From Chloroflexota bacterium (lineage in GTDB: Bacteria > Chloroflexota > Dehalococcoidia > Lucifugimonadales > Lucifugimonadaceae), in the NCBI GenBank assembly GCA_027624075.1, contig JAQBUH010000007.1:26660-90659 (forward strand): 64,000 bases of DNA. Reading direction: 5' to 3'. Below the pieces are notes generated by a model. The model was not told the origin of the DNA, ran no database searches, and saw nothing but the letters and a program-made list of their open reading frames with translations. A program made the translations under genes and the position numbers. Of this stretch, positions 14,227 through 29,023 are shown in pieces. Numbering within the stretch: position 1 is the first letter of the stretch; every line of letters starts with the position of its first letter.

Positions 14227-14990
14227 GTGGTGGTCATTGGGAAGCTCTGGAAGGCCGGGGGTTTCGGAGTTGTCAACGCCACACAGCGCGAACGCGCTGG
14301 CGCGCGGTATGCGATCTGCGGGTCGCCGGACAGGAAGCGCGTTATGGCAGAGATCGCGTCTGCCGGGTTGTCCTCGAACACATTGTGACCTGCGCCTGGG
14401 ATATGAAGCCACTCGCCGTCCGGCACGGTCGTCGCGGCCTTCTGCGCGGTCTCGTCAGTAACGAGTCCGCTATCGCCTCCGAGCAGGAACAGCGTCCCGC
14501 ACCGCCCGCCCCTCAGCGTACTCCAGCGCTCATCAGCGGCCGGCGCCGGATTGCGGTCCCTGTGCTTGAGGATGTCTGGATCCTCCCGCCAGGCGATACG
14601 GCCGTCTTGCTCAACCATTCGGGAGTGTAGGCGGCGTGCGACAGCGTCTTCGCTGATGAGCGGCAGCACACCACGCTGCCATTCCCGCGCCTCATCCCAG
14701 CCTGCGAAGTCGCGGCCAAGCGCGGCCACTCCCGCCGCAACCTGCTCGCCCGCGGCGTTGCGGAGAGCTATCGACTCGAGCCTGCTACTGCCAAGCAAAA
14801 CGCGGTGCATGCCGCCGGTAGACTCAGCGGCATGAGCGATGACCTGCCCGTCAGGGTTAAGGACGTCATAGGCGTTGGCACCCTCAATGCCCGTAAACAT
14901 CTCAAGCCCCTCAACCCGCTGCTCGATGCGCACGGAGTTGACCCGAGTCAGGTCGAGTAGCTGCCGCGTGACAGAGCCTGTTCTACGCAT
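14217..14990 (-). CDS. Scramblase-like N-terminus fused to a C-terminal alpha/beta-hydrolase segment
   Basis: A 257-residue chimera. Residues about 20-70 (EQRVEGLEMFTGIEGANAYD, then PDGQVIAHAAE) match the start of the phospholipid-scramblase/LURP-type fold, including the ETxNxYxIxNxxGQxIxxAAE pattern. From about residue 92 the sequence matches the second half of an alpha/beta hydrolase: LFLLGGDSGLVTDE has the acid position and HIPGAGHNVFEDNP the catalytic His. The hydrolase first half with the nucleophile elbow (GxSxG) is absent. The ATG overlaps the stop of the upstream mannonate-dehydratase-like gene by 8 bases. Whether this is a working fusion or a deletion remnant is open; hydrolase activity is unlikely. 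Confidence 0.7.
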   Translation of the reverse strand: MRRTGSVTRQLLDLTRVNSVRIEQRVEGLEMFTGIEGANAYDVLNPDGQVIAHAAESTGGMHRVLLGSSRLESIALRNAAGEQVAAGVAALGRDFAGWDEAREWQRGVLPLISEDAVARRLHSRMVEQDGRIAWREDPDILKHRDRNPAPAADERWSTLRGGRCGTLFLLGGDSGLVTDETAQKAATTVPDGEWLHIPGAGHNVFEDNPADAISAITRFLSGDPQIAYRAPARSRCVALTTPKPPAFQSFPMTTTCA

Positions 14991-15978
14991 TCCGGGTCAC
15001 GGTCTCGATCAGCGCCTGGATATAGCCGTTGGCGAACGCCCGTCCACGGTGACCGTACTCGGTGTCGCCAATGGTGACCGGCACATGGTCGTCGATGAAC
15101 ACTCCGTCGAAACCGGCGTCGTGGTAGATCTTCATTGCACGGCGCATGTCGACATACCCGGTGTTGATGAATGCCTCATCGAAAGGCACACCGGGGTTAG
15201 AGACGTTCCTGAAATGGACGTACAGCACTTTCTTGCGCTGTGCCATCTCCTCGATCCAGCTGTAAATACCTTGACCCGCCGCGTCCTCGAACTCGGAGAA
15301 CGTGCCCTGGCAGAACTCAATGGCGTTCGACGGTGAGTCCACTATATCCACGAGCCTCCGGTAGGCGTCGAAGGTGTGGAGCAGACGCGGGATGCCGCCG
15401 ATGGACCGGACCGGCGGGTCAGGCGGGTGGATGCCGAGCCTGATCCCTTCCTCCTCTGCAACTGGAGTGATGATGCGGATCCAGTCCTCGAGCAGGTCCC
15501 CCATCTCAGCCTCGTCATAGACGCGGCCATGCGTTGGCGCAGCGTTTGCAAACTCAGCATGGTCATAGTTGGTGTACTGCACGCCACCGCGGCCGACGCT
15601 GTTCGACGAGCCTCGCCAGACATTGGAAGGCATCCAGTTGTAGCCGAAGATCGGGAGGCCGGAGCGGCCCATTGCGGCAACCGTGTGCTTCATGTTCTCG
15701 ATCTGCCTCGCCCGGTCCGGGCCGCCGAGCATGACCTGGTCGTAGAAGCGGGTCGGCACGTTCTCGATGGCCTCAAGGTTGAGACCGAACGATGCGACAT
15801 GCTTGCGGAGCGCGATCAGGTCATCGACCTCGAACCGCACGTCGCCAGGGACCAGGTTCTCCCTGTTGTATGAGCCGAGGATCACGTCTGACGCGCCGTA
15901 CTGCGCTGCGAAGGTTAGTAGATCATCCAGCGGTGTCTCACCGAACGCTGCGGGCGAAAACTTGAAGCCGACTCTCAT
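14983..15978 (-). CDS. Mannonate dehydratase-like TIM-barrel protein (paralog 1)
   Basis: A 331-residue protein of the UxuA/xylose-isomerase-like TIM-barrel superfamily. Conserved pieces are RLGIHPPDPP (about residues 181-190), NAIEFCQGTFSE (about 220-231) and VLYVHFRNVS (about 255-264), which in mannonate dehydratases supply Cys, His and Asp metal ligands. UxuA converts D-mannonate to 2-keto-3-deoxygluconate. The ATG has AGGAGC six bases upstream. A second copy lies at 17743-18723, and between them are DinB and aldo/keto reductase genes on the same strand. The metal-site motifs support dehydratase chemistry; the true sugar acid may differ from mannonate. Confidence 0.85.
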   Translation of the reverse strand: MRVGFKFSPAAFGETPLDDLLTFAAQYGASDVILGSYNRENLVPGDVRFEVDDLIALRKHVASFGLNLEAIENVPTRFYDQVMLGGPDRARQIENMKHTVAAMGRSGLPIFGYNWMPSNVWRGSSNSVGRGGVQYTNYDHAEFANAAPTHGRVYDEAEMGDLLEDWIRIITPVAEEEGIRLGIHPPDPPVRSIGGIPRLLHTFDAYRRLVDIVDSPSNAIEFCQGTFSEFEDAAGQGIYSWIEEMAQRKKVLYVHFRNVSNPGVPFDEAFINTGYVDMRRAMKIYHDAGFDGVFIDDHVPVTIGDTEYGHRGRAFANGYIQALIETVTRNA

Positions 15979-15999
15979 CGATTGCTCCTGTAGACAGCG

Positions 16000-17742: not shown

Positions 17743-18723
17743 CTACTTCCCAGCCGCCTGCTTCGTCACTGCTTCGATCATTGCCTGGATGTAGCCGTTT
17801 GCGAAGGCGCGGCCGCGGTGGCCCCACGCGGTGTCCTGGTGCGTGTGCGGGACATGATCGTCGATGAAGAAGCTCTTGTAGCCGGCGTTGTGGTACGTCT
17901 TCATCGCACGGTACATGTCAACGTGGCCCGTGTTGATGAACTCCTCGTGGAACTCGTCCGGGTTCGGCGCAGAGACGTTGCGGAAGTGCACGTACAGCAC
18001 CTTGTCCCGACGCACCATCTCATCGATGAACTCGTACAGCGCGTCGCCTGCCGAGTCTGCCATCTCGGAGATCGTGCCCTGGCAGAACTCGATGGCGCAG
18101 TTCGGCGACTCGTAGATCGAAAGGTAGCGGCGGTAGTTGTCGTATGACCGGAACAGCTGCGGGATGCCGCCGAGCGACTTCGCGGGCGGGTCGCACGGGT
18201 GGATGCCGAGACGGACGCCTTCCTCTTCAGCAATGGGCGTGATGATCTTGATCCAGTACTCCAGGTTCGTCCACATCTCCTCATCGGTGTACACACGGTC
18301 GTGGGTCAGCGGCATCTTCTCCGCCTCTTTCAGACTGAACGCCGTTGCCACCGCGCCGCCGCGGATCAACTTCGGCGTGGTGCGCCAGACGTGCGAAGGC
18401 ATCCAGTTGTAGCCGAAGATCGGTATGCCGGCGCGTGCGATGTTCCGGACCGTTGTGATCATGTTCTCGACCTGCTCGTCACGCTTCGGGCCGTTCAGCA
18501 TGATGTGGTCGTAGAACTGCGTCGGGACGTTCTCCAGCGCAGAGAGCTTCAGGCCGTATCCCTCGACCGTGGTGCGCAGCTTCACGAGGTCGTGCAGCGA
18601 CCACGTCCCGCCGTAGCTGGGCAGGCTCGGGGTGTTGAGCAGCACGTCCGTTGCGCCGTACTGCGCGGCGTAGCGAAGGAACTCTGGTGTGGCGCTATTG
18701 AACTGTCCGAATGCTGGTCGCAT
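17743..18723 (-). CDS. Mannonate dehydratase-like TIM-barrel protein (paralog 2)
   Basis: A 326-residue paralog of the protein at 14983-15978, with the same motifs: RLGIHPCDPP (about residues 174-183), CAIEFCQGTISEM (about 212-224), VLYVHFRNVSAPNP (about 247-260) and the ending WGHRGRAFANGYIQA. The ATG at 18721-18723 follows AGGAAA by six bases. It lacks the short insert of paralog 1 but keeps all metal-ligand positions, so both copies are likely active. The pair brackets the aldo/keto reductase and DinB genes, giving a leftward run that looks like a small sugar-acid cassette. Confidence 0.86.
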   Translation of the reverse strand: MRPAFGQFNSATPEFLRYAAQYGATDVLLNTPSLPSYGGTWSLHDLVKLRTTVEGYGLKLSALENVPTQFYDHIMLNGPKRDEQVENMITTVRNIARAGIPIFGYNWMPSHVWRTTPKLIRGGAVATAFSLKEAEKMPLTHDRVYTDEEMWTNLEYWIKIITPIAEEEGVRLGIHPCDPPAKSLGGIPQLFRSYDNYRRYLSIYESPNCAIEFCQGTISEMADSAGDALYEFIDEMVRRDKVLYVHFRNVSAPNPDEFHEEFINTGHVDMYRAMKTYHNAGYKSFFIDDHVPHTHQDTAWGHRGRAFANGYIQAMIEAVTKQAAGK

Positions 18724-18897
18724 TGTGATTTCCTGTTGTACTGTTGCCTGTTGCGAATAATGCGGTCTGCGTCCGGCAGGCATTCGAGGGCGCGGGCCGA
18801 ACGCTTATGTCGGCGGCAGTCTACACGCATGGAGCGGACAAGTTGAACTGGCTTATCTGGATTAACTGGATGAGCGGATGCGTCAACCGTTACCGAC

Positions 18898-19278
18898 GTG
18901 ACCCCGTTCAGCACTGTCGTCATCGGCTCGCCGATCTACGGCGGAGCGGTCCGGGACGAGATAATCTCGTTCTGTGAGTTGCACGAGATAGCACTGATCG
19001 AAAAGCGTGTTGCGGTGTTCACGGTGGGTGTGCTCCCTGTTTACGACCGGGTGGGCGGCCAGGCGGAGCATGAAGGCGCTATCGAGCGCGTGCAGTTGCG
19101 TGCGCCCGGTGTTAACCCTGTGTCGCACGGAATATTCACAGGCGCATACGACCCGGAAAAGGTCAATTTCGTGTCTCGGATGCTGATGCAGAAAAAGTAC
19201 GCTCCGGCCGGAGATTCCCGGGACCCGAGGGCGATACAGGCTTGGGTTGACGACCTGGCTCAGCAGATAGCGGCTTAG
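18898..19278 (+). pseudogene. Flavodoxin-domain protein lacking its N-terminus
   Basis: The 126-residue frame begins TPFSTVVIGSPIYGGAVRDE, which equals the second conserved block of flavodoxin-like proteins; the family continues here to the C-terminus (VFTVGVLPVYD, IQAWVDDLAQQIAA). The first block, with the FMN-phosphate loop TxAxxxGST, should precede it by about 50 residues, but the frame is closed by TGA at 18871-18873 and no other upstream frame supplies the missing block. The GTG at 18898 has no ribosome site. It reads as a truncated remnant, or a stand-alone half-domain. A complete flavodoxin follows 125 bases downstream. Confidence 0.6.
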
Positions 19279-19996: not shown

Positions 19997-20841
19997 GGCT
20001 TCTCGACGTCCACGCACACATCCAGCAGCACGAGCCGGGCGAACTGGAGGGGATGCTCGCCCGGGCGGCCGACGCGGGAGTCGGCGCGATCATCGTGGCC
20101 GGAGTGACGGTTGAGGATAGCCGCCGCTGCATCGATCTGGCGGAGCGGCATCCGAGCCTTTTTGCCGGCGTTGGCGTGCATCCGACCGATCTCACGGGCC
20201 CTTTGACACAGGCTGATCTCACTGCGCTTGACGAGATGGCGGAGCACCCTCGAGTGGTTGTGATGAGCGAGGCCGGGATCGACCATCAACCTCATGTGCT
20301 TGAGAGGAGTCGCGCCGATGGACGGGAGTGGGCCGACATCCAGGAAGAGGCGTTTCGCCAACAGATCGAGGTTGCTCACCGCCACGGACTGCCTGTCGTG
20401 TTTCATGTCAGAGAGCCCGGTGACGACCCTGCGGCGGGGTCTGCGTGGCCTGTCGCGTTGAGAGTGCTGCGGGAATCTTCAGCTGGCGATATCGGCGGCG
20501 CCGCGCACTACTTCCAGGGGGATTTGAGCACGGCGCGCAAGGTACTCGACGCCGGGTTCATGGTGTCGCTGGCGAGGCCGCTGCTGAGACTGAGCCGGTT
20601 GCAGGAGGTTGCTGCGCGACTGCCGATCGACCGCATCGTCATCGAGACCGACTCATACCCGCAGCCGTTCAAGAAGGACCGGGCGAAGTGGACCGAGCCG
20701 CGGCACGCGCTGAGTGTGGCAGAGAAGCTGGCGGAGATTCGAGGACTGACGGTGGAAATGGTTGCCGAGAGGACATCGGAGAATGCGCTCTCCATGCTGA
20801 GAGGCCGCGGTGAGCAGGTCAGGGCAATGCTGGAGCAGTAG
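19993..20841 (+). CDS. TatD-family metal-dependent hydrolase
   Basis: A 282-residue TIM-barrel hydrolase. LLDVHAHIQ at residues 3-11 provides the HxH metal ligands; GVGVHPTDL (about 59-67), MSEAGID (Glu ligand, about 90-96), LPVVFHV (His, about 132-138), AHYFQG (about 165-170) and IVIETDSYP (Asp, about 214-222) follow in family order. TatD proteins are metal-dependent 3'-5' exonucleases/DNases, and related enzymes hydrolyse phosphoesters or lactones. The start is TTG 19993, which overlaps the flavodoxin stop (TTGA). It is slightly longer than Escherichia coli TatD. Confidence 0.86.
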   Translation: MRLLDVHAHIQQHEPGELEGMLARAADAGVGAIIVAGVTVEDSRRCIDLAERHPSLFAGVGVHPTDLTGPLTQADLTALDEMAEHPRVVVMSEAGIDHQPHVLERSRADGREWADIQEEAFRQQIEVAHRHGLPVVFHVREPGDDPAAGSAWPVALRVLRESSAGDIGGAAHYFQGDLSTARKVLDAGFMVSLARPLLRLSRLQEVAARLPIDRIVIETDSYPQPFKKDRAKWTEPRHALSVAEKLAEIRGLTVEMVAERTSENALSMLRGRGEQVRAMLEQ

Positions 20842-20861
20842 AGCGCGGGCTGTTGTCACGG

Positions 20862-21384
20862 GTTACGCGGCGGGCCGGTCAAGCCTGCTGTGAATCTTCA
20901 GTGACTGCTCTATGACCTGCTTCCAGAGCTCGGGGTGCCTGGACTGGCTCGCGGCCTGAAGCGCTGCCTTGAGTTGCTCTTCACCGGCGGCCCAGTCGCC
21001 GTCAGAGGTCTTGAGGGCGGACGCAAAGAACAGGAGGCGGGCCTGATCGGCATTTGAGGTTGTATCGATGTGGATGCCGTAGAGATCGGCTATCGCCGCA
21101 GCGTCTGCGATATGTTGCAGTTGTTGAACGCGGTCCGGAGCGCTATCGGAGGAGGATGCGCCTCGCAGCCGGGGCCTGCTTTGCGGAACCCGCTTCGGTC
21201 CCCGTTTCAGCCCCCGTTTCAGGCTGGGGCTGGTATTCGGTTTCGCCGGTTCCTGCGAAGCCGGGGATTTCCGGGCGCGCGGTCTGATGCCTTTGGGCTG
21301 GCTGAAGGCGGGACGGCGACGGGGCGGGTCCTGCTCCTGTGAGTGCTCGGCAGGACTGGTGTGCCGTTCACTACGTTCGGCAGT
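20862..21384 (-). other. Continuation frame of the long Pro-rich protein: conserved C-terminal domain without a start codon
   Basis: In the frame -1 relative to the long gene upstream, an open stretch runs from after TGA 21385-21387 to TAA at 20862-20864. Its last 90 residues read as a good helical protein (PDRVQQLQHIADAAAIADLY, then ARLLFFASALKTSDGDWAAG and HPELWKQVIEQSLKIHSRL). No ATG, GTG or TTG exists in this frame before the domain, so it can only be made as an extension of the upstream frame. Its basic, Pro/Ser-rich first half matches the style of the long protein. A one-base deletion or a programmed -1 frameshift between 21219 and 21384 would join them. Confidence 0.7.
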
Positions 21385-23759
21385 TCAGCTACCGGGCTCG
21401 GTGACACAGCAGGCTGGTCTTTCGATGCCGTCTTGCCGCGTGGCGTAGATTGCGCGGCAGACGTGTTCGCTACCTGGTCCGCTCGTCCTTCTGTGTCCCG
21501 TTTACCGGCAGTGCCGCCGGTACGTTGAACGGACTCAGCTGGCTTGCGCTCCGGCGCGACAGCAGCGGCTTTCCCGGGTCGGGTAGCCCGGGCGAGCTGG
21601 CTCCGCTTTTGCAGATGTGACGTCTGTCCGGCAGAGGTGGCCGGATGTTCTGACTCAGTCTTGTTGGTCTTGCGGCGCCGGCGCTGCTTTGTTGCCTCAG
21701 CCTCAGGCGGTTGAGTCGTCTGGCTGGCGGATTTCGGCTCAGCAACCGTCTTTGCGGGCGTTTCCTGTCCGGTAACGGCAGGTTGCAGCCTGGTCTGGGG
21801 ACGCTGGACCACATCGTTCGAGTCGATATTGACTGGATCAGTCGAATCGGTACGGTCCGCTGAACGTCGCGCGGCCTTGGAAGAGGACTTGCCGGACTGC
21901 GTCTTCTTCAACAGCCGTCGCCCTGGCGCTGCGGCTACGGTCTTCTCACGCACAGCTGGCGGTGACATCGCCGTTGCCGGCTGAACGAGTTCACTGGCAG
22001 CTTCGGCGGGGCGCGGCGTCGACGCGCGGCTTGTTCTCCGCGCCGGCTTTGCCGCGTCGCTCTCAACCTGCTCAGCGCCGCTCGCTGCCTTCGGATCATC
22101 GCGGCCTGCCTGTTGATTTTCAGGCTGAGAATCGGCTGATTGTTCCCTGCCTGCCAACGCCTTCGCCGAAACTCTGAGGTTCTGGCGTTTGTTCTGCCTG
22201 CCGCCGGCCAGCCTCGGTTCAGAAGAACTCGCACTGGCCAGGTCCGCGCCTCCGAGTTCAGGCAGTGTTTGAGCGACTGGCGAGAGGATGATGGCGGCTT
22301 CGTCCTCTTTCGCCTCCTGCCTGGCAGGCTCGACTTTAATTGGCTCAACTGATTGAGGGTCCGGTTTGCGAGCAGCGTTCCATTCTGTCTTGGACTCTTC
22401 GCTCTTCAACCGCTCTCGCTTGATTTCAGGCTTTGCTTTTTTCGGCAGTTCACTCTGAATATCCAACTGGACTCCATCGCCTCGCTCCAACTTGAGCGAT
22501 GCTCTCAACCGCGCCTTCTCCAGGCACCGCTCTTGCCTCCGGTCAGACAGCGTCGTCTCCAGTACGGGTCCGGGAGAACTTGCACCGGAAAGGTCCGCTA
22601 CTCCACCGTCTGGAGGCGAGTGAGTTACTGACGACTCAGGCAGGGCAGGCTCGTCACTATTCGTGGAGAGTTTCGGAGGCTCGCTTACGACCGGCGGAAT
22701 CTGCGCGGTCTGCACGAAAGGCAGGCTGTCGCCGGCAGAGCCAATCTCCGGGCCTGTTGCGACGGCTGGCTCTGCGACGAGTCCGGCAACGGTCTCACTG
22801 ACTGGCTCCTCGACGGGCTCTGGCGCAGGCGTGAACATCCACTCAACCGCAATCTCCTCTTGCACAGGATCATCCCTGTGGCCCGCCTCACCCGGCTCTA
22901 TCTCTGGCTGCACCACCTCCGGCGCTGCTTCCGCTTGATCCTGTTGCCCTGTTGAGGCATCCGCTGCCGCAACAACCTTTGAGGCCTGTGAGACCTGGCC
23001 GGTCTCGCCGTCAGCAAGAGGGTCGCCAGCAGGAGAGCTGTCGTTGGCCTGTCCAGCGTCTTCGGCCAGTGACGGCTCGATCTCCGTGGGTTCTTCGCTC
23101 AGCCTTGCCGAAACCGCAAGCAGGTGCATCATCGAGGCCAGCTCTGCCTCGTCAGGGGTTAACTCGTCGTAGTGAAGCGTCGAAGCACGTGGCGGCTGCC
23201 ACCGATCAGCTTCTGCGTCATAGTCATCGGCTGGTTGCGCATCGTATTCCTTGAACAGGCTGCCGCCGGATTCGGCTGCGTCCATTGGCTGTTTGAGGCG
23301 ATAGCCGGGCTTACGCGCCTGTCCTGCCGGCGCAGCGGCGGTCTTCGTTGAGTCAGGATGTGAAACTGGCGTGATTGGATCGTCGTATGACGGGGCCCAC
23401 TTCGCCTCTTCAGCGGTCTGCAGAGGGTGCGACACCACGAACTCAGGACGCGGGCCGGCTGGCTTCAGAAGAGGTTTGGGCGCCTCGCGTTGCCCGGCCT
23501 TTTTATCTGCCGGCTCGCTACGCCCTGAGACAAGAAAGGGCCGGATCAACTCGAACACGTCGTCGCGCCACAACCCTTTGGCTGCAAGCTCCTGCTCTAT
23601 CCAGAGTGCTTTCACCCAGGTCGGAGCGTTGGAGAGCGGCACCATCGAGAGTGCGATTTCGGTAAATGTCCGTGCGTCGAGTCTGCGCATCGAGCGGAAC
23701 TCCGCTGCGGGAGTCTTGCCACACTCGTCAGACGGCGCCTCGGTGGCATAAAACTCCAA
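21219..23759 (-). CDS. Long Pro/Ala/Glu-rich protein of unknown function (frameshifted before its C-terminal domain)
   Basis: I do not recognise this 846-residue protein. Residues about 24-82 form a compact helical domain (RRLDARTFTEIALSMVPLS, then VKALWIEQELAAKGLWRDDV and ELIRPFLVSG). The next 700 or so residues are low-complexity, rich in Pro, Ala, Glu, Ser and Lys, and expected to be disordered, turning from acidic (to about residue 330) to basic. The last residues of this frame (NPRLRRNRRNRIPAPA) differ from the -1 frame, which carries a conserved-looking C-terminal domain. The TTG at 23757-23759 is one possible start; ATG 23690 with GGAG upstream is an alternative. No signal peptide or membrane segment is seen. 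A structured head and tail linked by a long disordered spacer suggests a tether, but this is inference. Confidence 0.65.
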   Translation of the reverse strand: MEFYATEAPSDECGKTPAAEFRSMRRLDARTFTEIALSMVPLSNAPTWVKALWIEQELAAKGLWRDDVFELIRPFLVSGRSEPADKKAGQREAPKPLLKPAGPRPEFVVSHPLQTAEEAKWAPSYDDPITPVSHPDSTKTAAAPAGQARKPGYRLKQPMDAAESGGSLFKEYDAQPADDYDAEADRWQPPRASTLHYDELTPDEAELASMMHLLAVSARLSEEPTEIEPSLAEDAGQANDSSPAGDPLADGETGQVSQASKVVAAADASTGQQDQAEAAPEVVQPEIEPGEAGHRDDPVQEEIAVEWMFTPAPEPVEEPVSETVAGLVAEPAVATGPEIGSAGDSLPFVQTAQIPPVVSEPPKLSTNSDEPALPESSVTHSPPDGGVADLSGASSPGPVLETTLSDRRQERCLEKARLRASLKLERGDGVQLDIQSELPKKAKPEIKRERLKSEESKTEWNAARKPDPQSVEPIKVEPARQEAKEDEAAIILSPVAQTLPELGGADLASASSSEPRLAGGRQNKRQNLRVSAKALAGREQSADSQPENQQAGRDDPKAASGAEQVESDAAKPARRTSRASTPRPAEAASELVQPATAMSPPAVREKTVAAAPGRRLLKKTQSGKSSSKAARRSADRTDSTDPVNIDSNDVVQRPQTRLQPAVTGQETPAKTVAEPKSASQTTQPPEAEATKQRRRRKTNKTESEHPATSAGQTSHLQKRSQLARATRPGKAAAVAPERKPAESVQRTGGTAGKRDTEGRADQVANTSAAQSTPRGKTASKDQPAVSPSPVAELPNVVNGTPVLPSTHRSRTRPVAVPPSASPKASDRAPGNPRLRRNRRNRIPAPA

Positions 23760-24077
23760 TATTCATACTGGCCCTGCAGGCGGCCGGCGGAATCGCGGAT
23801 GTCACCAATCGCGATATGCTGGATTTCTGGAATGCTTACTCGTTTCGCCCATGTCCTGACGTCCCTGTGAGGATTTTCAGCGGAATCCGCCGTAGCCGAT
23901 AATCGCGGCGTGCCTTCATGCGCGTAGGCTCGAACTGGACGAGTAGCGTGGTGAGCATCACAATCTGGCTTTGCTGGCCCTGGTTTTGGCGCGCTCCGCG
24001 GTTACATTGGGCCGCGGTTACATCAGGACCGCAATCGGCACAACCTTCAGACATCAATAATCGGCACAGGAGTTCAC
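23760..24077. other. Gap of about 320 bases between divergent genes
   Basis: The gap separates the long Pro-rich gene and the Xaa-Pro peptidase gene and must hold both promoters. Short open frames are present but lack coding signature or ribosome sites. No repeat element was recognised apart from a local GGTTACAT pair (23998-24032). Confidence 0.4.
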
Positions 24078-25400
24078 ATGGACCAGCTCTCAGAGCGCCA
24101 GTTCGCAGAACGAAGAAAGAGGCTGCTGGCGCAGATCACTGACGGCGCGATCATCGTTCCTGCGGGACACCTGTCTGCTCGCAACCATGACGTCGACTTC
24201 AAGTTCAGGCAGCAGTCTGCGTTCTGGTATCTAACCGGGTTCGGCGAGCCTGACGCGGTTGCGGTGCTGCGGCCGGGCCATAGCGAGCCATACACGCTCT
24301 TCGTGCTGCCGCGCGACCCGAAACTGGAGACCTGGACAGGGCTTCGAACCGGTGTCGACGCGGCGAAGGAGAGGTTCGGCGCTGACGCCGCGTTCTCGAC
24401 GGCGGAGCTTGAGACCGAGCTCCCGAAGCTGATCGCTGACTATGAGAAGGTGTATTACGCGGTCGGCGCAGACCAGAAACTTGACGCGTTCCTGATCGAT
24501 CTTGCGGTCAAGCGCCGGAGGACCGCTCCTCGCGGGGATAAGGCGCTGACGGCGCTCATCGACCCGATGCCCGCGATCGACCAGTTGAGGTTGATCAAGT
24601 CCGCAGTAGAGATCGAGTGCTTGCAGAAGGCGATAGACGTGACGGTTGCCGGGTTCGATGTGGCGTTCGCGAAGGCGAGGCCGGGAATGTACGAGTTCGA
24701 GGTGCAGGCCGACATGGAGGTGGAGTTCCGCCGGGGTGGATCGCCTCGCAACGGCTATCCGTCGATTGTGGCGTCTGGCGAAAACGCCTGCATCTTGCAC
24801 TACATCAGCAACAGGGACCGCCTAAAAGACGGAGACCTGCTGCTGATCGACGCCGGCGCTGAATACGAGTACTACTCTGCTGACATCACCCGCACGTGGC
24901 CGGTGAACGGGAAGTTCACGCCGGAGCAGAAGGACATCTACGAACTGGTGCTTGCGGCGAACGAGGCAGGCATCGACGCGGCAAAGCCGGGCAACGGGGC
25001 CACGGACGTCCATGACGTTGCGCTAAGAGTGTTGACACAGGGCCTGGTTGACCTCGGCGTGCTCAAGGGAGAGATCGACACGCTCATCACTGAGCGCGGC
25101 TTTCTGCCGTATTACATGCACGGCACATCGCACTGGCTTGGCCTGGATGTGCACGACTCGGGAATCTACCGCACCGGAGGGCGGACCGGCCCTTCAATAA
25201 AGCTAGAGCCTGGAATGGTCCTCACCGTTGAGCCGGGGCTTTACTTCGGGCCGTTTGCGGAGGACGCTCCCGAGCGGTTCAAGGGCATCGGCATACGCAC
25301 AGAGGACGACGTCCTGATCACAGATGACGGCAACAGGGTGATGACGTCCGCAGCGCCAAAGACCGTCGCTGAGATAGAGGCTGCCGCGTCCGGCGGTTAG
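24078..25400 (+). CDS. pepP: Xaa-Pro aminopeptidase (M24 family)
   Basis: A 440-residue protein with the aminopeptidase P N-terminal domain (residues about 6-130, AIIVPAGHLSARNHDVDFKFRQ in part) and the M24 pita-bread catalytic domain (about 165-430). The metal ligands are in order: the two Asp of LLIDAGAEYEYYSADITRTW (about 257 and 268), His of HGTSHWLGLDVHD (about 351), Glu of LTVEPGLYF (about 385) and Glu of GIRTEDDVLIT (about 405). It removes N-terminal residues preceding proline using Mn2+, in the cytosol. The ATG follows AGGAG. Length matches Escherichia coli PepP. It appears monocistronic. Confidence 0.94.
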   Translation: MDQLSERQFAERRKRLLAQITDGAIIVPAGHLSARNHDVDFKFRQQSAFWYLTGFGEPDAVAVLRPGHSEPYTLFVLPRDPKLETWTGLRTGVDAAKERFGADAAFSTAELETELPKLIADYEKVYYAVGADQKLDAFLIDLAVKRRRTAPRGDKALTALIDPMPAIDQLRLIKSAVEIECLQKAIDVTVAGFDVAFAKARPGMYEFEVQADMEVEFRRGGSPRNGYPSIVASGENACILHYISNRDRLKDGDLLLIDAGAEYEYYSADITRTWPVNGKFTPEQKDIYELVLAANEAGIDAAKPGNGATDVHDVALRVLTQGLVDLGVLKGEIDTLITERGFLPYYMHGTSHWLGLDVHDSGIYRTGGRTGPSIKLEPGMVLTVEPGLYFGPFAEDAPERFKGIGIRTEDDVLITDDGNRVMTSAAPKTVAEIEAAASGG

Positions 25401-26573: not shown

Positions 26574-27542
26574 ATGAAGTTCGTATTTGTGCCGCCGCAA
26601 AGTGGTCCTGTCAGCGGTTGGGTCAGCCGGCTCCAGGACTCGATACCGGGCGTCGACTTCGTGGCGCCGGAAACGGAAGACGAAGCGGTCAGGGAAATCG
26701 CTGACGCGGATGCCGCATTTGGCACCCTTTCGAAGCGCGTCCTTGCCGCCGGCAAGAACCTCAAGTGGATCCAGGCGCCCGCGGCCGCGCCGAACGCCGG
26801 CTACTACTACCCTGAGCTGGTCGCCCACAAGGCACAGGTAACCAACTTCCGTGAGATCTACAACGACCACATCTCCTCGCACATCCTTGCAGTGCTGCTG
26901 TCGTTCGCAAAGCACCTGAACATCTACCGCGACCAGCAGCGTGAACACAGGTGGGCGCCGCTGGCTCCTCCGGCCCATCACACCAGCTTCCTGCCAGAGA
27001 GCACGGTGCTGATCGTCGGCGTTGGTGGCATTGGCGCCGAGACGGCCCGGCTGTGCGCCGCGTTCGGCATGAAGGTGCTGGCGACGGACGCGCGGCGTGA
27101 GGAAAAGCCTGACTGGGTGGACGAGATGGGCGGATCGGACGACATGGACAGGTTCTTGCCGCTGGCGGACTACGTGATCCTGACGATTCCGCACACGCCG
27201 CAGACTGAAGGGCTGTTCGACCGGTCGAAGTTCAAGCTGATGAAGGATTCGGCGATCTTTATCAACATCGGCCGAGGGATGACGACGAAGCTCGACGACC
27301 TGGCAGACGCTCTTTACGCGGGGGACATCGCCGGCGCGGGGCTGGACGTTTACGAGATCGAGCCGCTGCCGGCTAACCACCGGTTGTGGGACGCGCCGAA
27401 CACGATTCTGACGCCTCACATTGCAGCCCAGGCCGGCGCGCACCTGGAGGAGCGCAGGTACGAGATAATCGCCGAGAACGTGCGTCACCTGTTGAGCGGC
27501 GAGCGGCTTCGCAACGTTGTCGACAAGGCGAACTGGTACTAG
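26574..27542 (+). CDS. D-2-hydroxyacid dehydrogenase
   Basis: A 322-residue NAD-dependent dehydrogenase. The nucleotide site VGVGGIGAETARLC lies near residues 144-157. The catalytic triad is complete: Arg in INIGRGMTT (about 234), Glu in DVYEIEPLP (about 262) and His in LTPHIAAQ (about 281). It interconverts 2-keto acids and D-2-hydroxy acids in the cytosol; the branch resembles glyoxylate/phosphoglycerate-type enzymes but the substrate is not fixed. The gene is alone on its strand, convergent with the frameshifted glycosyltransferase. It fits the hydroxy-acid theme shared with the Ldh2-type enzymes at 41.7-44.1 kb. Confidence 0.93.
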   Translation: MKFVFVPPQSGPVSGWVSRLQDSIPGVDFVAPETEDEAVREIADADAAFGTLSKRVLAAGKNLKWIQAPAAAPNAGYYYPELVAHKAQVTNFREIYNDHISSHILAVLLSFAKHLNIYRDQQREHRWAPLAPPAHHTSFLPESTVLIVGVGGIGAETARLCAAFGMKVLATDARREEKPDWVDEMGGSDDMDRFLPLADYVILTIPHTPQTEGLFDRSKFKLMKDSAIFINIGRGMTTKLDDLADALYAGDIAGAGLDVYEIEPLPANHRLWDAPNTILTPHIAAQAGAHLEERRYEIIAENVRHLLSGERLRNVVDKANWY

Positions 27543-27567: not shown

Positions 27568-28161
27568 CTAACCCAGCTTGCGGATGAGCTGGACGTACTG
27601 CAGCAGGTGACGGTCGCCAAGGAACTTTTCGATCACACGCGATCTGGCGTTTTGGCCGAGCCGTGCCGCCAGTTGGCCGTCATCAAGGACCGACTGCACG
27701 GCGGTGGCGAACTCTTCGGGGTCCCGCGGGTCCTGTAAGAGGAGACCCGACTCGCCGTGAACGATCTGGTTTTGAATGCCGCCGACGGCAGAGGCGACCA
27801 CCGGCTTGCCTTTCCACATAGCCTCCGTCACGGTCAACCCGAACCCTTCCTCAAGGCTCTTCTGGATCACGAGCGTTGCGTTCGCCTGCAACGCGTTAAT
27901 TATCGCCGCGTTCTCGTCGATGTCCGTCATGGGGATGCAGATGAGTTGGACCCGGCTCCGCTCGAAGTGCGGGAGTTCGCGCCACGCCTCGGTGCACTCT
28001 GTCAGGACCTCTCCGCCTTCGGGGTCGTCTGCAACACCGGTCACGACCGGGCCTGCTAGCACAAGGTGCGAGTCTCTATCGCCGTCTACGTGGACGGCGA
28101 AGGCCTCCATGACACCCTGCATGTCCTTAAGCCGGTCCCAGCGAGAGGACCTGTACGGCAA
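27568..28161 (-). CDS. Glycosyltransferase, C-terminal part (frameshifted from the next gene upstream)
   Basis: The fragment encodes the GT-B C-terminal half: SRWDRLKDMQGVMEAF, then VIQKSLEEGFGLTVTEAMWK (the EGFGLxxxE nucleotide-sugar motif) and PVVASAVGGIQNQIVHGESG. Its true N-terminal partner is the frame at 28127-29023. Reading GTACAGGTC and skipping one C at 28147-28148 gives AVQVSRWDRLKDM, which joins the two halves without a gap. The combined protein of about 480 residues matches trehalose synthase/phosphorylase-type (TreT-like) family 4 glycosyltransferases. The fragment alone would start at a TTG with no ribosome site, so independent expression is unlikely. Confidence 0.8.
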   Translation of the reverse strand: MPYRSSRWDRLKDMQGVMEAFAVHVDGDRDSHLVLAGPVVTGVADDPEGGEVLTECTEAWRELPHFERSRVQLICIPMTDIDENAAIINALQANATLVIQKSLEEGFGLTVTEAMWKGKPVVASAVGGIQNQIVHGESGLLLQDPRDPEEFATAVQSVLDDGQLAARLGQNARSRVIEKFLGDRHLLQYVQLIRKLG

Positions 28162-29023
28162 GCCTGCTGTCCGGGCCGGGAGCGGGCCCGGTGCGCACGA
28201 TGTCAGCCATCCGGTTTACTCGCCCTGTAGAGCCGTCTGCCAGGGTGAACTCAGGTGGAACGTCGGTTGAGTCGTAGTGGATGACTCCGGTGTGGGCCAG
28301 GATGGCGAGCGCCGCATCGCGTGACATGGGGCGGTTCTTGGTAGAAAACGGGTCGACGGACGGCGGAATGATGAACAGACGGTTCTCGTCCACCCACTCC
28401 GGCGCAAGCTCACTGCGGGAAAATACGAGCGCGTCGACATCTTCCAGATACGGACGCAGGAACTCCCAGGCTGCGGTGTTGAGGTCGCTCTTCCGGTCTG
28501 TGCCGACGTGACAGCGCCAGATCACCGTCGCTCCGGCATTCTTCATCTCGGCCGCCAGTCCCGCTGTCTGCGGGTCGTGCAGCATGACGATGTCGCCCGG
28601 CGAGACCACGGCGCGAAGCTCCCCTGCGTTCGCAAGTGTGACCTCGCGATATACGTTCCTGTCGTGTGAGTTCATGGGTAACCCGTCGCCTTCATGGCCG
28701 TGCAGCATGTTGTGGAGCCGCTTGGTGATCTTGAAGAACTCGGGCGTTCCATCGATGACGTACCAGCTCACATCGACGCCTGCTCCCCTGACGTAGGAGA
28801 GCATCCAGTGGAGCATCTCCGCAACACCGCCGCCTTTAGCTGTCGAGTTGACGCTGATGAGTGCCCGCCCGGACAGAGCGGTAGATATCTCATCTGCTGT
28901 ATCCAGCACCAGGCGTGTTCGCTCAGAGCCGATGACGGGCTCAAGCCGGGCAAGATCAGCAGACTGCAGTGGAACTGAGTTGAGTGGCATTTCGTTGTTC
29001 CGCAGAGTGAGGTTGCGACGCAT
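28127..29023 (-). CDS. Glycosyltransferase, N-terminal part (TreT-like, frameshifted)
   Basis: The fragment encodes the GT-B N-terminal half of a TreT-like glycosyltransferase: RALISVNSTAKGGGVAEMLHW (written in part; about residues 53-73, the acceptor-side GGVAE motif), VDVSWYVIDGTPEFFKITKRLHN, SPGDIVMLHDPQTAGL and VDENRLFIIPPSVDPFSTKN. It ends LSLGPA in the wrong frame. ATG 28990 is an alternative start with a weak CGGA upstream. TreT enzymes move glucose between nucleotide sugar and trehalose; related proteins make other disaccharides. The gene is inactive as read unless the extra base is a sequencing error or the ribosome shifts +1. Confidence 0.82.
   Translation of the reverse strand: MRRNLTLRNNEMPLNSVPLQSADLARLEPVIGSERTRLVLDTADEISTALSGRALISVNSTAKGGGVAEMLHWMLSYVRGAGVDVSWYVIDGTPEFFKITKRLHNMLHGHEGDGLPMNSHDRNVYREVTLANAGELRAVVSPGDIVMLHDPQTAGLAAEMKNAGATVIWRCHVGTDRKSDLNTAAWEFLRPYLEDVDALVFSRSELAPEWVDENRLFIIPPSVDPFSTKNRPMSRDAALAILAHTGVIHYDSTDVPPEFTLADGSTGRVNRMADIVRTGPAPGPDSRLAVQVLSLGPA

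Follow-up and report, generated by a model that had tools for sequence, protein, structure and literature searches.

A long Chloroflexota protein gene with two folded ends, split between two frames in one assembly and possibly encoding a cytoplasmic scaffold

The window analysed here is a stretch of 64,000 nucleotides (positions 26,660 to 90,659, forward strand, of contig JAQBUH010000007.1) from the genome of a Chloroflexota bacterium of the Lucifugimonadaceae (assembly GCA_027624075.1; 2.3 Mb, 60 contigs). Its minus strand carries an 846-codon frame at 21219-23759, which ends at a stop at 21219 and is overlapped by an open frame in the -1 register. An earlier note, made from the sequence alone, had described the two frames as one long protein whose conserved C-terminal domain is reachable only through the second. 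Both are present as it claimed, the -1 frame being open up to 21384, and a codon scan bore out that ATG, GTG and TTG are missing from the latter; CTG, ATC, ATA and ATT are the sole other bacterial start codons present in it. The description of the frames thus stood, while the start of the long one had to be moved. Because the ortholog proteins start with MRRL, MPRL or MRSL, and that of genome G002 starts at a GTG and reads MRHL, ATG 23690 is most likely the true start (823 codons in the broken frame) rather than TTG 23759. The window's own protein in the protein collection, P0001, has 823 residues in agreement with this start. Comparison with relatives leaves little doubt that the two frames are a single gene, broken in the window assembly.

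We searched 100 whole genomes with each end of the protein. The N-domain was matched in six of them, i.e. the genome of the window itself, three Chloroflexota of the same genus and two with weak matches that were rejected. Identity of the N-domain to G006, G003 and G002 was 66-72% with E-values of 3.3e-32 to 1.4e-25. Three relatives known by name are metagenome-assembled Chloroflexota genomes (OFTM176, OFTM297 and SFB_Oligo_Co_124). The C-domain, translated from the -1 frame, was also matched in six genomes, its own and five of the same genus, G002-G006, with 37-53% identity and E-values of 5.6e-25 to 2.9e-15. The rejected N-domain matches, in G046 and G072 (33-35% identity, E-value about 5e-4), fell on a stretch with three stops and on an unrelated 331-codon frame, respectively, and a profile search with the N-domain did not recover G046. 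The proportion of nonsynonymous differences was 0.10-0.41 vs. 0.66-0.85 for synonymous ones and was lower in all eight comparisons, synonymous divergence being saturated in six of them. By these sequence comparisons the N- and C-terminal ends are real coding sequence and not chance frames.

Both ends share one stop-free open frame in G002 (1330 codons), G003 (826) and G006 (746), and they are also joined in the collection proteins P0002 (944 residues), P0003 (1051) and P0004 (1073). P0005 and P0006 were taken to correspond to G002 and G003, and each was counted once. A single open frame was therefore counted in six of six relatives in which both ends were found (719-1314 residues), and the split-frame arrangement is kept in none. 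In G005 the C-domain alone was found in a frame cut by the contig end. G004 has a 702-codon ortholog frame (L016, 6323-8431) that lacks the N-domain, which was found neither in the three frames just upstream nor elsewhere in that genome; this is either a natural loss of the N-domain or another broken copy.

CTG- and ATC-type codons do occur in the -1 frame ahead of the domain, and the C-domain could in principle be a separate gene with such a rare start. This explanation has next to no probability: the frame has no start of the usual three kinds, and the C-domain closes a long frame in all eight relatives that hold it (1330 codons at most; the shortest, of 456 codons, is truncated by the end of its contig). 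Furthermore, no stand-alone relative of about 51-163 residues was found at an E-value of 0.001 or below among 3544 candidates, in a search that needs shared short words. Another search, with the C-domain of G002 within its full-length protein, recovered only that protein, a sign of how limited a search of this latter kind is. Homologs in which the C-terminal residues form a gene of their own were the contrary case named in the earlier note. Its view that the C-terminal domain belongs to the same protein was thus upheld by the single frame in relatives and the lack of a stand-alone homolog.

The junction of the two frames was located by alignment to P0002, which crosses it in frame. Translated in frame 0, bases 21281-21271 give RAP, and in frame -1 they give RAR, while P0002 has RAPRAR in series. 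Between 21284 and 21271, in a segment flanked by a serine and a lysine codon, the codon counts would make the window 7 nucleotides (nt) shorter than P0002. A 7-nt difference in a GC-rich short repeat fits replication slippage or an assembly fault. Of the two causes offered in the earlier note, the loss of a base or a shift of the ribosome, the former held in kind, with the codon count suggesting 7 nt and not one base, and the latter unsupported, the relatives having intact frames.

With programmed -1 frameshifting the gene would yield a short product that lacks the C-domain and a long one that includes it. The overlap contains, at 21297-21291, the heptamer CCCAAAG, which follows the X XXY YYZ pattern and is the sole such heptamer in frame (whole-frame codon shuffles gave a mean of 3.9). 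Of three segments folded downstream, one was slightly more stable than its shuffles (z -1.51, matched by 14 of 200). Yet when the codons of the overlap were shuffled 5000 times, a heptamer of this type turned up in 2584 cases, about half by chance, and the remaining two downstream segments were unremarkable (z 0.90 and -0.03, folded without pseudoknots). Because the relatives are intact, with no shift needed in any of the six that have both ends, we regard a programmed shift as very improbable.

P0002, which bears on the age of the break, is identical to the window's protein in 56 of 56 residues of the N-domain, 654 of 741 of the linker, 54 of 61 of the arginine-rich stretch before the C-domain and 78 of 81 of the C-domain; C-domain and linker differ at p 0.024 (Fisher). 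So high an identity in the C-domain points to a break that is either young or not real. If instead it were real and old, the C-domain would be on its way to being lost in the species and the 823-residue product would be the functional form. The broken frame may indeed recur, P0001 having two member sequences, and the nearby flavodoxin and glycosyltransferase genes are damaged as well. But a long-dead domain is expected to drift no more slowly than the linker, and the C-domain has kept its identity to P0002 with no stop in 173 codons. We consider an old break unlikely.

The glycosyltransferase gene (Pfam Glycos_transf_1; 27574-28990, minus strand), a group 1 enzyme that is presumably trehalose-synthase-like, consists of two overlapping frames in the window that meet at about 28148-28188. 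It is a single frame in G004 (473 codons) and G002 (513 codons). Among 21 window loci tested against relatives, frame changes were seen in two, the long protein and this glycosyltransferase; the 21 include one locus that merges two paralogs, one with a weak 31% match and one truncated flavodoxin. A second frame-broken gene is present in the window and therefore recent indels or damage, or indels of the assembly, are favoured. On the other hand, the longest contig among the two members of P0001 has 126754 bases vs. 90659 for the contig of the window. A second assembly may thus carry the broken form, which weighs against a pure assembly error. Taken together, the likely cause of the break, which falls between about 21285 and 21270, is a small deletion of recent date or a fault in the assembly.

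Two further observations concern the state of the window. The flavodoxin-like gene at 18874-19275 (plus strand) lacks the first about 40-48 residues relative to the 182-codon frame of G002, and Pfam Flavodoxin_5 was matched only from profile position 43. Two paralogous genes at 14986-15993 and 17752-18840 (minus strand), presumably mannonate-dehydratase-like, are matched by the same relatives' proteins, the weaker match being at about 56% identity.

Alignment of the orthologs revealed four conserved islands in the intact protein, the N-domain, two short motifs and the C-domain, with a variable tether beyond motif 3 (Table 1).

Table 1. Features of the long protein gene and its frame junction; positions are those of the window.
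Feature	Position	Strand	Basis or remark
N-domain, helical, residues 1-56 when counted from ATG 23690; three helices predicted	23523..23690	-	ortholog alignment and model
Motif 2, short and conserved, approximately residues 83-105	23376..23444	-	no variation at V86, S87, P89 and E95 across 6 orthologs
Motif 3, helical and conserved, approximately residues 175-198, ELTPDEAELASMMHLLAVSARL	23097..23168	-	ortholog alignment and model
Long low-complexity tether, acidic in its first and more basic in its second half	21271..23096	-	charge profile of 9 family members
CCCAAAG heptamer, X XXY YYZ type, in frame	21291..21297	-	probably chance
Frame junction	21270..21285	-	alignment to P0002; 14 nt vs. 21 nt implied by P0002 codons
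Open -1 frame	20863-21384	-	173 codons and stop; zero ATG/GTG/TTG
Predicted C-terminal four-helix domain, similar to tetratricopeptide repeats (TPR); conserved part in -1 frame	20866..21096	-	9-sequence alignment and model

The N-domain of five orthologs was 67-83% identical to that of the window, with 32 of 60 columns invariant. Its predicted helices span residues 6-16, 24-37 and 43-54 with block values of the predicted local distance difference test (pLDDT) of 51-80 over residues 1-60; the model of the N-region as a whole is weak, with a mean of 57.4 over 204 residues. Motif 3 is invariant in six orthologs at L177, A182-S186, H189, A192, V193 and R196 and was modelled as a helix at 179-198 (block pLDDT 61-81). 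The best model of the C-domain had four helices with a pLDDT of 82.3 and a predicted template modelling score of 0.75, the five models spanning a pLDDT of 56 to 82.

Neither sequence nor length of the tether is conserved among the relatives. What persists is that the first half is the more acidic one. Among 10000 shuffles per member, a difference between the halves as large as the observed one arose in 0 for P0002, P0003, P0004, G002, G005 and G006, in 1 for the window, in 6 for G004 and in 41 for G003; with the window, G004 and G005 the calculation took in the whole available frame. The tether of the G003 ortholog (frame L015, 4572-7052) is largely alanine- and glutamate-rich, and its second half, with 26% alanine and no proline, appears coiled-coil-like by eye. 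No strongly hydrophobic segment was seen in the six intact proteins; their best 19-residue hydropathy mean was 1.37, and the usual cut-off is about 1.6.

The earlier note knew of no family for either folded end, and this was confirmed within the libraries used: no fitting family exists in Pfam, NCBIfam, PHROGs or PADLOC, a result that rests on these libraries and not on an exhaustive literature search. Pfam-A gave no family above cut-off for eight family proteins or pieces. Matches below threshold to DUF6366, Clathrin, CENP-U, CT_A_B, YcaO_C, DUF6456, RHH_1 and Rap1_C_Sp were judged to be chance, as were RiPP_near_DynW of NCBIfam (E-value 0.079) and PDC-M49B of PADLOC (E-value 0.02, with P0004). 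PHROGs yielded zero matches, even below threshold, and no Rfam family reached its gathering score within 20500-24200. A sequence search of the PDB found no match for the N-domain or for the G006 protein. For the C-domain it found 19 sequences at an E-value of 1 or below, the best being an entry named 'CAP REPEAT' (2e-05, with no stretch passing alone); the remaining matches were mostly designed helical proteins, plus ferritins and Hbl B protein, and the set was judged to reflect helix composition.

The N-domain profile found the protein in 4 of 76 genomes of the family and in 2 of 393 sampled genomes of the class, and the C-domain profile in 6 of 250 genomes of the order, the own genome being counted in each case and all belonging to one genus. 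On this sampling the protein is a genus-restricted orphan. In the window as well as in G002, G004 and G006 the gene has a convergent TatD-family gene on one side and a divergent M24 aminopeptidase gene on the other, both assigned in the window from Pfam. G005 has kept the TatD side, and G003 has different neighbours. In three further genera we also read the frames around TatD (G007, G009 and G046) in search of an ortholog that had diverged, and the neighbours there proved to be other genes. Absence of the gene cannot be judged in G001 because TatD is lacking there and the aminopeptidase match is weak (E-value 4e-5).

As to function, we lean towards the combined view that this is one gene with its frame broken in the window and that the intact product is a cytoplasmic scaffold. 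The scaffold role by itself is a tentative proposal drawn from analogy. The N-domain and the TPR-like C-domain might each bind a partner, or the C-domain might self-associate, while the tether would set the spacing of the ends and drive a loose, charge-based association. The product encoded in the window would be without the C-domain.

The layout may be likened to that of PopZ of Caulobacter, described in PMC9512792 as having a short helical N-terminal region, where clients bind, a disordered acidic and proline-rich middle and a helical C-terminal region. Predicted helical ends around a low-complexity middle are found in the protein here, too, with the reservation that the model of its N-region is poor. 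The differences are considerable, however. The middle comprises about 565-1160 residues (length of the intact proteins minus some 155 for both ends), whereas that of PopZ has 78; in the protein here the second half of the middle is basic or less acidic; the organism belongs to a different phylum; and self-assembly of the protein is putative. In addition, Pfam-A, which presumably contains a PopZ model, gave no sequence match.

The predicted four-helix arrangement of the C-domain may resemble that of TPR and helical-hairpin proteins such as PcrH, LGN and STUB1, of which PcrH and LGN are TPR proteins. The structural lists were headed by PcrH and LGN with weak scores, mixed with MIT domains and designed proteins (best Foldseek E-value 0.28), and the fold search with the N-region gave no useful match. 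No TPR family was listed in Pfam-A for nine members at an E-value of 10 or below. TonB, one of several proteins with charge-blocked proline-rich linkers, has an acidic and then basic spacer ahead of a small C-terminal domain, and a charge-blocked proline-rich spacer likewise precedes a small C-terminal domain here; unlike TonB, the six proteins examined by hydropathy have no hydrophobic N-terminal anchor.

The basic half of the tether could also act as a DNA-binding tail like that of histone H1, in which case the protein would condense or anchor the nucleoid and the end domains would be secondary. The second half of the tether is rich in alanine, lysine, arginine, proline and serine and net positive in four of six intact members (P0002, P0003, P0004 and G002, with lysine plus arginine at 0.17-0.21 vs. 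aspartate plus glutamate at 0.08-0.16); in G006 it is neutral (0.13 and 0.13), yet positive in the eighth and ninth tenths. In G003, however, the alanine-rich, proline-free second half is net negative (0.20 acidic vs. 0.16 basic), and the strongest constraint is on the end domains and not on the tail. We hold a histone-like role to be improbable. The scaffold view has a more specific form that is rather doubtful, namely a giant scaffold of the genus's own, with two folded ends and a tether of 565-1160 residues that is free in sequence and keeps its acid-first order, which would form condensates or bridge a partner and nucleic acid.

The frame break itself is ordinary and serves as a warning of indels in the window. 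The origin of a new, genus-restricted protein can be studied cleanly in this family, in which the folded ends are kept and the tether keeps little beyond the order of its charges. PopZ has been studied in Alphaproteobacteria; if the protein truly is a scaffold, a PopZ-like design would extend beyond that group.
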